IMG/VR virus record: IMGVR_UViG_3300031857_001667
Span: 1 to 20,970 of that record
Direction: 5' to 3' (one strand)
Length of the DNA: 20,970 nt
Origin: a virus
A program made the translations under genes and the position numbers. Positions 3,309-16,564 of this stretch are shown here, one piece after another. Below the pieces are notes generated by a model. It was not told where the DNA came from and made no database searches. It saw only the letters and a program-made list of their open reading frames with translations. How positions within the stretch are numbered: the stretch's first letter is position 1; every line of letters begins with the position of its first letter.

Positions 3309-3884
3309 ATGAAAACAAGCGTAATTAATCAAATCAAAACACTTTTAGGAATGGAAGTGAAATTGGAAACAATGAAGTTAATGGACGGAATAACAATTTT
3401 TGAAGCAGACACTTTTGAAACTGACAAAGAAGTTTTTATTGTAACTGAAGACGAACAAAAAATACCTGTTCCAATTGGAGAATATGAATTAGAAGACGGA
3501 CGTATTTTAGTAGTAGAAGTTGAAGGAATTATTTTAGAAATAAAAGAAGTTGCAACTGAAGAAGAAGTTGTTAAAGAAGCACCGGAAGTAGAAGTTGAAG
3601 TAGAAGCTGAAGCAACACCAACAGCAAAGAAGACAATTGAAAGCGTAGTTAAAGAAACGTTCTTTGCAGAAATAGAAAAATTAACACAAGAAAATATAGA
3701 GTTAAAAGCACAATTAGAAAAGTTGTCTAAAGTTGACGAAGTTACAAACGAAGTAACCGAACTTGCAGACGTAAAGCCAATTGCGTTTAACCCTGAAAAC
3801 ACGAATGAAGTTGAACATTTCCAATACGCAAGTAAAAGACCACGTTCAATAATGGATTCAATTATAGAAAAAATAAACAATTAG
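3309..3884 (+). CDS. Putative capsid scaffolding protein
   Basis: The product has 191 residues. The first 80 include a small beta domain, with GEYELEDGRILVVEVEG (57-73) as the clearest block. A strongly acidic Glu/Val-rich segment (about 79-102) follows, then a coiled coil (about 116-141, ENIELKAQLEKL), a Pro/Asn linker, and a basic C-terminal tail (KRPRSIMDSIIEKINN). Acidic, extended, coiled-coil proteins encoded directly before the major capsid gene and after the prohead protease are usually scaffolds, and the basic end would be the capsid-binding helix. The function is therefore inferred from position and composition. A minor head component cannot be excluded. The upstream leader ends ACAAAACACGAAAT and no Shine-Dalgarno sequence is seen. 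Confidence 0.65.
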   Translation: MKTSVINQIKTLLGMEVKLETMKLMDGITIFEADTFETDKEVFIVTEDEQKIPVPIGEYELEDGRILVVEVEGIILEIKEVATEEEVVKEAPEVEVEVEAEATPTAKKTIESVVKETFFAEIEKLTQENIELKAQLEKLSKVDEVTNEVTELADVKPIAFNPENTNEVEHFQYASKRPRSIMDSIIEKINN

Positions 3885-11868: not shown

Positions 11869-12906
11869 ATGGCAAATAGCAGCGCAAGGTTTCGTTTAAA
11901 ACAGGACGAGATTGAAATACTTATGCAGTACAGGGGAATAAAAAATGCAACCGATGAAGCTGGAGTTGATGACAAAGACGTTAAACACGGTTGGCTAAAA
12001 ACAAAACAATCTTCTTTGTTCTTTAAGAACCCAAACTTTAAAGCTGAAGAACTAAACGAGATACAAAGAATAAAAGACGAATGTATAAAAGAAGTAAAGT
12101 TATACGCACCGAAATACCACGCAATAGAAACAATAAAAAGCGAAGACACGCATTTATTAGTAATTGATATTGCCGATTTGCATATTGGAAAACTTGCAAC
12201 AGCATTTGAAACAGGCGAAGACTATAATTCACAGATAGCCGTTAAACGTGCAAAAGACGGACTGCAAGGCATCTTAGACAAAGCAAAAGGGTTTAACATA
12301 GACAAAGTTTTATTTGTTGCAGGAAACGACATTTTACACACCGACAACACAAGAAGAACCACTACAGCAGGAACACCACAAGACACGGACGGAATGTGGT
12401 ACGACAATTTTATAATGGCAAAGAACCTTTACATTGATTTGTTAGAAAAATTAATAAGTTTTGCAGACGTCGAAGTTGTATATAATCCAAGTAATCACGA
12501 TTTGACACACGGTTTCTTTTTAATGCAATTAATCGAAGCACACTTTAGCAAGTCAAGTATTCGTTTTAACGTAGATTTAAAGCATAGAAAAGCGTTTAGG
12601 TACGGAAGTAATTTAATAGGAACAACACACGGTGACGGAGCGAAAATCGAACACTTACCGTTATTGTTAGCAACTGAATTTCCAATACTTTGGAGCAAAA
12701 CTAAACACCGATATATTTATTCGCACCATATACACCATAAAACAAGTAAAGATTTTATAGGAGTAACATTTGAAACGTTACGCAGTCCTTCAGGTTCAGA
12801 TAGTTGGCATCAAAAAATGGGATATACAGGCGTTCCACGAGCGGTTGAAGGCTACATACATCACAAAGAATTTGGACAAATTGCACGATTAACACATATT
12901 TTTTAG
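11869..12906 (+). CDS. Calcineurin-like metallophosphoesterase
   Basis: A 345-residue protein with the full set of metallophosphoesterase motifs: DLH (D103, H105), GND (152-154), SNHD (208-211), THGDG (253-257) and SHHIHH (285-290). These ligands bind a two-metal centre that hydrolyses phosphoesters. The first 90 residues look like a separate helical part, possibly DNA-binding. The substrate is unknown. A nuclease of the Mre11/SbcD type or an RNA or nucleotide phosphatase are both possible, though the partner ATPase of SbcCD is not visible here. It is the last gene of the upstream block, 6 bp after the spanin, and ends right before the 12.9-13.2 kb regulatory gap. Confidence 0.8.
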   Translation: MANSSARFRLKQDEIEILMQYRGIKNATDEAGVDDKDVKHGWLKTKQSSLFFKNPNFKAEELNEIQRIKDECIKEVKLYAPKYHAIETIKSEDTHLLVIDIADLHIGKLATAFETGEDYNSQIAVKRAKDGLQGILDKAKGFNIDKVLFVAGNDILHTDNTRRTTTAGTPQDTDGMWYDNFIMAKNLYIDLLEKLISFADVEVVYNPSNHDLTHGFFLMQLIEAHFSKSSIRFNVDLKHRKAFRYGSNLIGTTHGDGAKIEHLPLLLATEFPILWSKTKHRYIYSHHIHHKTSKDFIGVTFETLRSPSGSDSWHQKMGYTGVPRAVEGYIHHKEFGQIARLTHIF

Positions 12907-12934
12907 TTTGATTAAATAATTTATATTATATTTG
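12907..12934 (+). promoter_or_regulatory. Bacteroidetes-type promoter
   Basis: TTTG at 12907-12910 and TATATTTG at 12927-12934 match the Bacteroidetes -33 (TTTG) and -7 (TAnnTTTG) elements. The spacer is 16 nt, slightly short. It starts immediately after the phosphoesterase stop, and a transcript would run into the terminator at 12956. Confidence 0.55.
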
Positions 12935-12940
12935 TCATTC

Positions 12941-12996
12941 ATAGTTGAAAAAAAGAAAACAGTTGTAAGCTCCCCAGCACGCAGCTGTTTTTTTTT
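12941..12996 (+). ncRNA. Candidate short RNA between promoter and terminator
   Basis: If the promoter at 12927 is used, transcription would begin near 12941 and end in the T run at 12996, giving an RNA of roughly 55 nt that is mostly one hairpin with an exposed C-rich loop (CTCCCCAGCACG, 12970-12981). It has no ORF. It could be a small RNA, a decoy, or a leader whose terminator is overridden. This is inference from spacing alone. Confidence 0.35.
12956..12996 (+). terminator. Intrinsic terminator
   Basis: AAAACAGTTG (12956-12965) pairs with CAGCTGTTTT (12982-12991), ten pairs with one U-G, and a T run continues to 12996. It closes the upstream late operon and/or the short transcript from 12941. 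Confidence 0.75.
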
Positions 12997-13013
12997 GTCA
13001 CAAATTGTTACAA
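12995..13013. promoter_or_regulatory. Tandem TTGTNACAA dyads, candidate operator
   Basis: Two nine-base palindromes, TTGTCACAA (12995-13003) and TTGTTACAA (13005-13013), lie with one base between them. Their centres (12999 and 13009) are exactly 10 bp apart, about one helical turn, so two dimers would bind the same face. A repressor operator or a replication initiator site fits. No binding protein is identified. Confidence 0.5.
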
Positions 13014-13135: not shown

Positions 13136-13165
13136 TTGCAGTTATTAAAATAAGTATTAGATTTG
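13136..13165 (+). promoter_or_regulatory. Early promoter (TAGATTTG)
   Basis: TTG at 13136-13138, a 19-nt spacer and TAGATTTG at 13158-13165 fit the Bacteroidetes promoter well, 32 nt upstream of the ATG at 13198. The 20-nt core TAGATTTGCATATAATTATT recurs exactly at the second early promoter (19468). Confidence 0.75.
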
Positions 13166-14116: not shown

Positions 14117-14358
14117 AAACAGCAGTACAGGAAGTATTTAGCGATTTAGAAAAATTGCATCCAAATTTATTTAATGTTTACACAACCGAAGGTAAATTTT
14201 TTATTAACCACTTTCACAAATATTTAGAACTGGAAAAGGAGCAAATAGTTGAAGCACACGGAAACAAATTAAAAAAAAGTAAAGACGAAGGAAATTACGA
14301 GTATTGGTTTAGTGGCGAAGACTATTACAACAAAACATTTAAAAATACGGAACAATGA
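14113..14358 (+). CDS. Conserved-looking small early protein, unknown function
   Basis: An 81-residue hydrophilic protein with an amphipathic N-terminal helix (MKTAVQEVFSDLEKLHPNLF) and the block LEKEQIVEAHGNKLKKS ... YWFSGEDYYNKTF. I recall the EKEQI(I/V)-A...G...YYN(E/K)TF pattern from many Bacteroidetes phages and prophages, always as a hypothetical protein. It overlaps both neighbours by 4 bp (ATGA), so it belongs to the early operon. Confidence 0.7.
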   Translation: MKTAVQEVFSDLEKLHPNLFNVYTTEGKFFINHFHKYLELEKEQIVEAHGNKLKKSKDEGNYEYWFSGEDYYNKTFKNTEQ

Positions 14359-14711
14359 TTGAACTAATAAAACAAATAATAGAACAAGACGGACTTGCAC
14401 AAAAAAACCGAAAACGTGAAATAGTACACCGAAGAATTTATTTGTTTAGGAAGCTACGCGAAGACGGACACACACTAAAAGGAATAGGAAGTTTATTTAA
14501 TATGAACCACGCAACTATTCTACACGGTTTAAAAACTTACCAAGATTTAAGCGATGTAAACGACAAGTTATTTTTACACGACATAGAATACTACAAATTG
14601 CTTTTGAGTTTAGAACGTCCGGAACTTGACTTGCGTAAAGAAATAAAAGAAGCAAAGAACTTAAAAGACTTGCGTAAAATTCAGTTAAGAATAAAAAATA
14701 AATTTTATTAA
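14355..14711 (+). CDS. DnaA domain IV-like DNA-binding protein
   Basis: A 118-residue basic protein. Residues about 25-62 form a helix-turn-helix resembling the DNA-binding domain IV of the replication initiator DnaA: RRIYLFRKLREDGHTLKGIG, then NMNHATILHGLKTY (49-62), matching the DnaA signature (D/N)H(S/T)T(V/I)xH. The ATPase and other DnaA domains are missing. A stand-alone domain IV could bind DnaA-box-like sites as a repressor, an initiator or a DnaA competitor. The gene ends directly before a non-coding region with a promoter and structured arms, and the replication genes follow, so that region is a plausible target. Confidence 0.7.
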   Translation: MIELIKQIIEQDGLAQKNRKREIVHRRIYLFRKLREDGHTLKGIGSLFNMNHATILHGLKTYQDLSDVNDKLFLHDIEYYKLLLSLERPELDLRKEIKEAKNLKDLRKIQLRIKNKFY

Positions 14712-14736
14712 TTCGTGTTTATATTAAATTAATTAT

Positions 14737-14744
14737 TAAATTTG
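14737..14744 (+). promoter_or_regulatory. Putative promoter before the replication genes (TAAATTTG)
   Basis: TAAATTTG fits TAnnTTTG and is followed by CA, as in the two promoters at 13158 and 19468. The -33 element is weak (TTTA about 14718). Transcription would begin near 14750, just before the first pairing arm. Confidence 0.5.
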
Positions 14745-14753
14745 CAATTGTAC

Positions 14754-14844
14754 GGTCTAACATTATAAGTACAAAAAGGAATTATTGCCCTTGTTTATGA
14801 AGTTGAAGTTAGACCCAACGGATTGAACAGGGGCATTTTATTTT
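14754..14844 (+). ncRNA. Structured leader RNA: pseudoknot or attenuator
   Basis: Four segments pair in interleaved order. GGTCTAAC (14754-14761) is perfectly complementary to GTTAGACC (14808-14815). TGCCCTTGTT (14786-14795) pairs with AACAGGGGCA (14826-14835), ten pairs with one U-G. The order A1-B1-A2-B2 makes either an H-type pseudoknot or two competing folds. The second hairpin is followed by a T-rich stretch (14836-14844), like a terminator. GTTG (14802-14805) and CAAC (14816-14819) could form a small hairpin that would hide A2. No ORF lies here. A regulated leader for the replication genes downstream is my reading. Confidence 0.55.
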
Positions 14845-14859
14845 AAAAAAATTAAGATT

Positions 14860-15039
14860 ATGGAAGAAATTATTTTACAATGTGTTGAAAGTAAAAATGA
14901 CAAAATGATTGTTTCAATTGGAACTAATATTTGTTTTGAAGTTATTGAAAATGACACTTCAAAGACTGTTTGTATTAACACAAAAGATGCTGCTAAACTA
15001 ATTCATTATTTATCAATTTATTTATTTAATGAGTTATGA
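14860..15039 (+). CDS. 59-residue protein, unknown function
   Basis: ATG at 14860, TGA at 15037-15039. The product begins MEEIILQCVESKNDKMIVSI and looks like a small alpha/beta domain with three cysteines (8, 24, 38) and a last hydrophobic helix (KLIHYLSIYLF). It starts 16 nt after the terminator-like hairpin and shares ATGA with the replication gene. The coupling suggests it is expressed with the replication operon. Function unknown. Confidence 0.65.
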   Translation: MEEIILQCVESKNDKMIVSIGTNICFEVIENDTSKTVCINTKDAAKLIHYLSIYLFNEL

Positions 15040-15668
15040 GTGGTTGGATTAAAATACACAGAAAGTTTTTAGATTGGGAATGGTTTAATAAGTCTGAAGC
15101 TGTACACTTGTTTTTGTATATGCTTATTAAAGCTAATCACAAGGACAATAAATGGCAAGGCAACGATGTAAAACGTGGGCAATTTATTTCGTCTTTAGGT
15201 AATATTTCCAGTGCTACAGGAATAACTATTCAGCAAATTAGAACCATTTTAAAAAAGTTAGAAAAAACGAATGAAATTGTAGTAAAATCAACAAGCCAAT
15301 TTACTATCGTAACTATTTGTAAATATGAATGTTACCAAGATGAAAATGAAGACACTAACAAACCAATAACAAACAATCAACAAACGACTAACAAACAATC
15401 AACAACAAACAAGAATGAAAAGAAAGAAAAGAATGAAAAAGAAGTGATTTTAGATACTTGGATTGAATACAGGAAGTCGGCAAAAAAGACTCTAACACAA
15501 CAAAGCATAAAATCTATTTTAGTTAAAATGGAAAAATATACAAATGAACAATGTAAGTTTGTAATAAACAAATCAATCGAACAAGGTTGGCAAGGGTTGT
15601 TTTGGGACAACATACAAACAATACAAGAAGTTAATGAACCTAAAAAATGGAAAGCACCGTGGAGTTAA
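15036..15668 (+). CDS. Winged-helix replication protein, putative helicase loader/replisome organizer
   Basis: A 210-residue protein. Residues 1-105 are a winged helix of the kind found at the N-terminus of phage replisome organizers: MSGWIKIHRKFLDWEWF, then RGQFISSLGNISSATG (47-62) and IQQIRTILKKLEKTNEI (65-81) as the recognition part. A low-complexity Asn/Gln/Thr/Lys linker (about 108-138) leads to a C-terminal helical domain with WIEYRKSAKKTL (about 143-154) and IEQGWQGLFW (182-191), as in phage DnaD/O-type proteins. These bind origin DNA and recruit the helicase, which is encoded next with a 22-bp overlap. The origin itself may be nearby. Confidence 0.75.
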   Translation: MSGWIKIHRKFLDWEWFNKSEAVHLFLYMLIKANHKDNKWQGNDVKRGQFISSLGNISSATGITIQQIRTILKKLEKTNEIVVKSTSQFTIVTICKYECYQDENEDTNKPITNNQQTTNKQSTTNKNEKKEKNEKEVILDTWIEYRKSAKKTLTQQSIKSILVKMEKYTNEQCKFVINKSIEQGWQGLFWDNIQTIQEVNEPKKWKAPWS

Positions 15669-16564
15669 ATGGATATAAAATTACCGAAGCAGGAGACGTA
15701 ATTACTCAACTATTTAAGTATAGAGACAATTACAACAATAAAGGCAAATATTTAGGATTTAAAAGTTTGCACGAACATTATTCTATGAGTTTAGGAAATT
15801 GTACGGATTGGACAGGTTTCCCTATGAGCGGTAAAACGCAAGTATTAATGGAATGTTTAATGAACACTTCTAAATTTTATGGTTGGAAGCATTTAGTTTA
15901 CTTTCCTGATGTTGGTTCTAATGTAGAAATAATTGCTGATTTAATACATAAGAAAACAGGCAAGAGTTTCAACCCATTAGATAGAAACACGATTGAAGAC
16001 AAAGAAATAACACAAGCTATTGATTGGGTATTAGAACATTTTAAGGTATTGACTAAAAAAGATGTTAAGGCAAAACTTACACCAATACAATTTTGGGATA
16101 TGGCTGTTGAACTAAAAAAACACGATGAACTGCACACAGCTTCAATTGATAGTTGGAAGGACTTAAATCACCCTTATAACGATTACGGTGGCTATGCACA
16201 ATATTTAGAATATGTTTTGCCATATAGAAACCAAATTGCAGAAGACAATGATTTACATTTGCACACGATTATACATCCAAAACTAACTGAAAAAGAAAAC
16301 GGAAAAAGAAACGCTCCTGTTCCTTACGATTTAAAAGGTGGCAGCGAATGGTTCAATAGTGGTAAATGTATGATTACAGTACACAGGCAAGACCCTACAT
16401 TTAATTTAGCTGAATTACACTTTAATAAAATTAAACCACGTTCAAATGGAAATATTGGAATGATTGAAATTTGGTTTGATAAAGAAAAATTGTGTTACTT
16501 TGAACAATCAAACCCAGCGCCAAATGTATATGAAAAAACTTTTGCTTGTAAACAAACAATTTAA
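15647..16564 (+). CDS. DnaB/Twinkle-like replicative helicase (RecA-fold ATPase)
   Basis: A 305-residue protein with a RecA-type ATPase core: Walker A GFPMSGKT (57-64), a Walker B-like SIDSW with D168, a sensor-like TIIHPK (208-212) and GGSEWFNSGKCMITVHR (231-247), the region that carries the arginine finger in DnaB and Twinkle helicases. There is no primase or DnaB N-terminal domain, so it is a helicase-core-only form and much shorter than DnaB (about 450 residues). It unwinds DNA at the phage fork. Its start overlaps the replication protein by 22 bp. No primase gene is recognised in the window. Confidence 0.8.
   Translation: MESTVELNGYKITEAGDVITQLFKYRDNYNNKGKYLGFKSLHEHYSMSLGNCTDWTGFPMSGKTQVLMECLMNTSKFYGWKHLVYFPDVGSNVEIIADLIHKKTGKSFNPLDRNTIEDKEITQAIDWVLEHFKVLTKKDVKAKLTPIQFWDMAVELKKHDELHTASIDSWKDLNHPYNDYGGYAQYLEYVLPYRNQIAEDNDLHLHTIIHPKLTEKENGKRNAPVPYDLKGGSEWFNSGKCMITVHRQDPTFNLAELHFNKIKPRSNGNIGMIEIWFDKEKLCYFEQSNPAPNVYEKTFACKQTI

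Follow-up and report, generated by a model that had tools for sequence, protein, structure and literature searches.

What does the noncoding gap of 148 bp (14712 to 14859) in front of the replication genes of this phage encode? According to the original prediction, two pairs of complementary arms interleave there in the order A1-B1-A2-B2, and inspection of the sequence confirmed every arm at its predicted position. A1 (GGTCTAAC, 14754 to 14761) and A2 (GTTAGACC, 14808 to 14815) form 8 Watson-Crick pairs, and B1 (TGCCCTTGTT, 14786 to 14795) and B2 (AACAGGGGCA, 14826 to 14835) form 10 pairs, one of which is G-U. The gap contains all the arms, which sit 3' of TAAATTTG (14737 to 14744) and 5' of TTTTATTTT (14836 to 14844) and of the ATG at 14860. 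None of 1,000 dinucleotide shuffles of the gap produced 8 Watson-Crick pairs that cross a helix of 10 pairs in the same order. Throughout this text, the window is the whole stretch of DNA analyzed (20,970 nt), and its host is probably a member of the Bacteroidota, judging from the promoter type and the relatives described below. Lakes, seas, and guts abound in Bacteroidota phages, whose RNA leaders are, to our knowledge, almost unexplored.

Architecture and conservation of the leader

The nested fold of 14748 to 14845 reaches -26.9 kcal/mol, compared to -15.8 kcal/mol in shuffled sequences (z, -3.66; none of 200 as stable). From 14749 to 14835, this fold consists of a hairpin, P1, followed by a terminator stem, P3, that encloses an inner hairpin, P4; P1 and P4, built around A1 and A2, were absent from the original prediction. 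All these features lie on the plus strand. P1 pairs TGTAC (14749 to 14753), which includes the predicted transcript start, with GTACA (14769 to 14773), as seen in the minimum free energy fold and in double changes among relatives. A single-stranded A/U-rich linker without a covarying helix (14774 to 14785) leads to P3, which extends the predicted 10-pair helix to 12 pairs (14786 to 14797, including B1, with 14824 to 14835, including B2) and is supported by the minimum free energy fold and by covariation, RNAalifold adding two inner pairs. P4 pairs GTTG (14802 to 14805) with CAAC (14816 to 14819) and also covaries. Since A1 fills the loop of P1 and A2 fills the loop of P4, the helix between them, hereafter K, is a kissing-loop helix and not an H-type pseudoknot; the crossing of helices in the proposed pseudoknot therefore stands, and its simple H-type form does not. 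In the window and in most relatives, the P4 loop has two nucleotides before its K strand. Within the 21-kb window, the 8-mer of A2 is found nowhere but at A2 itself, and its complement nowhere but at A1.

P3 and P4 are separated by an internal loop (UGAA, 14798 to 14801, opposite GGAU, 14820 to 14823) in which GAx opposite xGA is kept in relatives, for example, as GAA/GGA or GAT/TGA, a pattern suggestive of tandem sheared G-A pairs. We considered a kink-turn at GAA/GGA and prefer tandem G-A pairs, as the loop is symmetrical and has no 3-nt bulge. A candidate leader peptide within the RNA (MKLKLDPTD, 14797 to 14826) was rejected because relatives have a broken frame or no ATG.

The sequence TAAATTTG matches the -7 element of Bacteroidota sigma-A promoters, for which the consensus in F. 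johnsoniae is TAHHTTTG with G at -5 (PMC6847099), and this spacing puts the predicted +1 on the opening base of P1 (14749). Of 55 aligned relatives, 53 have the exact element, and in relatives the first modeled P1 pair lies 0 to 3 nt from the predicted start. Downstream, P3 is a G-C-based stem followed by the U-tract of a predicted intrinsic terminator (14836 to 14844), which is kept in relatives (at least 5 U among the first 8 nt 3' of P3 in 54 of 55). Both the promoter and the terminator-like nature of the second stem were thus borne out, and the arrangement, with a promoter on the 5' side and a gene on the 3' side, is that of an intrinsic terminator or attenuator. A simple terminator scan of the window did not list this terminator because its loop is longer than 8 nt. 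No conserved TAnnTTTG was seen on the opposite strand in the alignment of relatives, as read from sequence.

Compensating base changes in homologs, the test named in the original prediction, were found. We reached related phage contigs in IMG/VR via the proteins of the window, aligned their gaps, and built a covariance model, R1, from P1, P3, and P4, leaving K out. R1 matches about 130 loci, including ones in Flavobacterium phage FL-1 (E value, 1e-6) and Cellulophaga phage phi18:3 (E value, 3e-5; E values of the model are rough), whose sequences share little with the window. We refer to these relatives as family 1, in which K occurs as 14 different 8-mers. Across 55 distinct sequences aligned to R1, 439 of the 440 K cells are paired, and 101 are doubly changed (cells count sequences, not events). 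The covariation of K is 0.685; shuffled controls gave 0.213, and slid controls never exceeded 0.060. Taken as a whole, the structure has 99.0% of its cells paired, and 20 of its 24 pairs show double changes: P1 is paired in 96.8% of cells (double changes in 4/4 modeled pairs), P3 in 98.8% (7/8 modeled pairs), and P4 in 100% (3/4 pairs), counts that the alignment to R1 favors for P1, P3, and P4 and that are unbiased for K since K is outside R1. The G-U pairs in the alignment, such as 20 U-G pairs at columns 65:105, indicate that plus-strand RNA, and not a DNA palindrome, is under selection. Runs of double changes occur only in P1, K, P3, and P4, and no alternative (antiterminator) helix that would exclude the terminator is conserved. 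One such helix, in which AAGG of the linker would pair with CCTT, was rejected, its pairing not being conserved in relatives. Loop complementarity is kept by compensating changes in family 1 and in 15/15 members of a second family, and we regard an RNA structure that includes K as close to certain.

Relatives of the leader and the genes around it

A sequence-free descriptor (K, P1, P4, P3, and T-tract) found the same plan where R1 gave no match, namely, at loci L140, L143, and L152 (all three with 7-nt loops), at L163 and L084, and in phage FCV-1.01 (L160). Without the promoter, the descriptor returns many chance matches. Requiring the promoter makes it specific: in 667 kb from cultured phages, 5 matches score at least 23 (11b, FCL-2, FL-1 twice, and phi18:3), and a shuffled control five times that size has a single match, scoring 19. 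We then searched IMG/VR with a family 2 pattern drawn from three of the loci that R1 had missed and restricted to the promoter, P1, and part of the P1 loop. It yielded 22 distinct matches, 15 of them real by promoter and context, and about 12 of these are independent because three are the pattern sources or copies of those. All 15 have the exact loop complement 35 to 41 nt further on, within a small hairpin, and together they use 8 different 7-mers. The complement is absent in all 6 matches without a promoter and also in L171, whose promoter-like match we take as chance. Family 2 is nearly unalignable with family 1 and follows the same plan with different K sequences; between its P3 and P4, AGUA stands opposite GAA, which resembles the signature of a loop E motif.

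The element extends far beyond this one phage. The cultured phages that carry it are FL-1, phi18:3, phi10:1, FCL-2, FCV-1.01, and 11b. The phi10:1 leader precedes gp024 to gp026, which include a primase/helicase, and the FCL-2 leader lies directly 5' of gp54, with gp55 next, occupying the position of the helicase-like gene. Our scans covered loci reached via replication proteins, one pattern, and a few hand-chosen cultured phages. In 395 Bacteroidia genomes, a model tuned to family 1, R2, gave one weak match that has neither K nor promoter, and we therefore claim no chromosomal copy.

In the window, the first gene 3' of the leader (14860 to 15039, plus strand) encodes 59 amino acids of unassigned function. 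It is followed on the same strand by genes for a DnaD-like helicase loader or replication initiator (15036 to 15668; PHROG 2514; E value, 4.5e-30) and for a helicase-like protein of the replication operon (15647 to 16564; PHROG 5482; E value, 2.9e-75) with weaker matches to DNA primase/helicase families. A same-strand gene directly follows the leader in 87/87 checkable loci, i.e., those with enough sequence, and in none of these does TAnnTTTG occur between the two. The first genes are unrelated, coding for proteins of 56 to 62 amino acids, DnaD-like loaders, Lin1244-type initiators, or HNH and GIY-YIG endonucleases; those behind family 2 leaders encode NUMOD4/HNH or GIY-YIG endonucleases or replication initiators. 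One leader can be followed by various first genes, and one gene can follow different leaders, a free exchange which argues that the leader is tied to a position and not to one protein.

Several family 1 loci, such as L007, L057, and L097, have a homing endonuclease gene (MEEIWKDVVGYEG...) between the leader and the DnaD-like gene, called NUMOD4-like by sequence resemblance to Pfam-confirmed family 2 proteins. Contig IMGVR_UViG_3300044675_001156 (L168 and L011/L083) holds both families with different kissing sequences, the family 1 leader 5' of replication genes and the family 2 leader 5' of a homing endonuclease gene. Two kissing-loop units, in FL-1 (KY421186.2) at 3691 and in L164 at 6992, have no long reading frame directly behind them; the stretch that follows is possibly another RNA or an intron, and Rfam gave no match at FL-1 3691.

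Upstream of the leader and outside the element, the gene at 14355 to 14711 (plus strand) resembles the C-terminal (domain IV) helix-turn-helix of DnaA (Pfam PF08299, Bac_DnaA_C; E value, 5.8e-7; 29.9 bits, below the curated cutoff of 31.5). Its product had been proposed as a regulator of the leader. Such a gene is often found there, but a special link is not established, because about 20 of 87 leaders have another upstream gene and family 2 precedes unrelated genes; the DnaA-like protein is thus an unproven candidate.

Candidate functions of the leader

Our preferred explanation, to which we give a probability of roughly 0.6, is that the leader is a structured RNA that acts in cis to attenuate transcription of the phage replication operon. 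From a start at about 14749, RNA polymerase would make P1 and the linker, next the 5' strand of P3, and then P4, whose loop would kiss the P1 loop through 8 pairs to give a compact rod. P3 would then close and, together with the U-tract, end most transcripts near 14844, releasing an RNA of about 95 nt. No promoter separates the terminator from the first gene, so that the replication genes would be expressed only by polymerases that read past the terminator, at a frequency most likely set by K, either unaided or together with a factor from phage or host. The kissing loop may keep the hairpin in its terminating form or, since the linker has only 12 nt in the window, may strain the base of P3. 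What the sequences show is the fold that includes K, a match to the promoter consensus, the outline of a terminator, and an unvarying place ahead of a gene; termination at the leader, its regulation, and the role of K in it we infer from the anatomy, in which a promoter-driven short RNA ends at its own terminator directly 5' of a promoterless gene, the plan of an attenuator. The loops vary freely yet stay complementary, which argues that they serve the fold itself, and the variety of K sequences, 14 in family 1 and others in family 2, excludes any fixed outside target of the loops. The units at FL-1 3691 and L164 6992 count against an attenuator. As for the switching on and off suggested in the original prediction, the structured leader was upheld, but a classic two-state switch is not visible, because no antiterminator helix is conserved and, on paper, K is compatible with P3.

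We advance more tentatively a gated terminator, in which formation or breakage of the intramolecular loop-loop helix would directly set termination efficiency and which Bacteroidota phages would reuse as a sequence-independent timing module in front of replication and homing endonuclease genes. The same architecture turns up 5' of replication-start and homing endonuclease genes, in leaders of widely differing sequence and also in cultured laboratory phages. Should the leader set the time or level of replication, it would offer a direct route to infection timing in Bacteroidota and, in nature, a clear example of a terminator coupled to a kissing loop within one RNA molecule.

Among the other readings, a small RNA of about 95 nt acting in trans, with the terminator as its 3' end and the downstream genes living on incidental read-through, seems to us rather unlikely. 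A promoter of its own, a hairpin at the 5' end, and a terminator at the 3' end are the plan of a stable small RNA, and two such loops could also join two molecules; yet a free RNA has no need to lie always directly 5' of a same-strand gene. Moreover, the loops are not conserved and do not recur in the window, which speaks against a fixed base-pairing target, and some phages carry two leaders whose loops differ (as on the contig shared by L168 and L011). The rigid, compact fold starting at +1 and the precise exchange of motifs at the P3-P4 joint would also suit a 5' element that modifies polymerase for read-through, like the HK022 put RNA, or that protects the 5' end of the mRNA against decay, the U-tract being a weak terminator. 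This is less probable still, as a strong U-tract after a G-C-rich stem base in 54/55 relatives fits termination better.

The leader could instead serve the protein encoded downstream as its RNA partner or antitoxin, by analogy with AbiF and type III toxin-antitoxin operons. The operon order is shared (promoter, structured RNA, terminator, and gene), and some first genes do encode nucleases. The first genes are unrelated, however, tandem repeats like those of type III antitoxin RNAs were looked for and not found, and the AbiF model of Rfam gave no match, which makes this reading very improbable. Scarcely credible is the view that the gap holds DNA sites (operators or an origin) and no RNA structure: the leader does sit between a DnaA-like gene and replication genes, but the many G-U pairs strongly disfavor it, as do the crossing helices, their coupling to the promoter start, and the copies 5' of homing endonuclease genes.

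The attenuator that we favor belongs to an already known kind, leader RNAs with terminators, but the recurrence of one fold, in widely divergent sequences, ahead of other phage genes points to an RNA control element that has yet to be described. Rfam searches at gathering and permissive thresholds gave nothing beyond chance matches in the window and no gathering match in 8 related loci, in support of the earlier statement that no element like it is described, and DNA similarity to annotated phages was limited to chance fragments. The family, K inside a terminator hairpin, and the dual replication and homing use were absent from Rfam and from the open-access literature searched (subscription journals and preprints were outside its scope). 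The c4 antisense RNA of P1-like phages and the CI RNA of phage P4, which governs a replication operon, are small phage leader RNAs with loops and early termination. Their loops pair with separate targets, whereas those of the leader pair mutually and vary freely; no Rfam match to c4 (RF01695) was found in the window or related loci, and no separate loop target of this type was found in the 21-kb window. The pseudoknot in the repZ leader of IncI-alpha and IncB plasmids is a loop-based long-range pairing 5' of a replication gene; its action is on translation and involves an antisense RNA of the opposite strand, whereas here there is a terminator and no antisense promoter was recognized. Fully complementary hairpin loops of 7 to 8 nt with flanking purines are found in ColE1 RNA I/RNA II and in the HIV DIS, where they join two molecules, in contrast to the two loops of one RNA here.

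RNA structure directly 5' of phage homing endonuclease genes, close to a promoter, is also found in T4, where leader hairpins hide the ribosome-binding site and have neither kissing loop nor terminator (PMC2988022). By analogy, a precedent for an attenuator may be seen in AbiF RNA, which has its own promoter, a structured RNA of about 100 to 130 nt, an intrinsic terminator, and a next gene without a promoter, and whose terminator reduces downstream expression in C. difficile (RCd22) (PMC12373285). AbiF RNA binds one protein family, whereas the first gene here is not fixed, and the leader differs from it by its kissing loop and by the lack of any sequence or model match: RF03085 was absent from the gathering matches in the window and 8 related loci and from the permissive matches. 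Downstream of the leader, other genes stand in place of an AbiF/Abi_2 gene.

Other transcription units

Promoters of the form TAGATTTG at 13158 and 19468 of the window share a downstream CATATAATTATT and precede early genes; they probably begin ordinary leaders without a kissing-loop structure. A second conserved promoter-terminator unit lies at 12927 to 12997, where TATATTTG is followed, after about 55 nt, by a hairpin and a long U-tract. Its hairpin reads ACAGTTG...CAGCTGT or ACAGTTA...TAGCTGT, a compensating change among relatives, and the unit, which has neither a gene directly behind it nor a kissing loop, is possibly a second small RNA. In L156, a promoter-terminator unit at 2690 to 2756 that comes after the same upstream gene as that at 11869 to 12906 of the window has a possible weak kissing pair, GCTTTCA/TGAAAGC.
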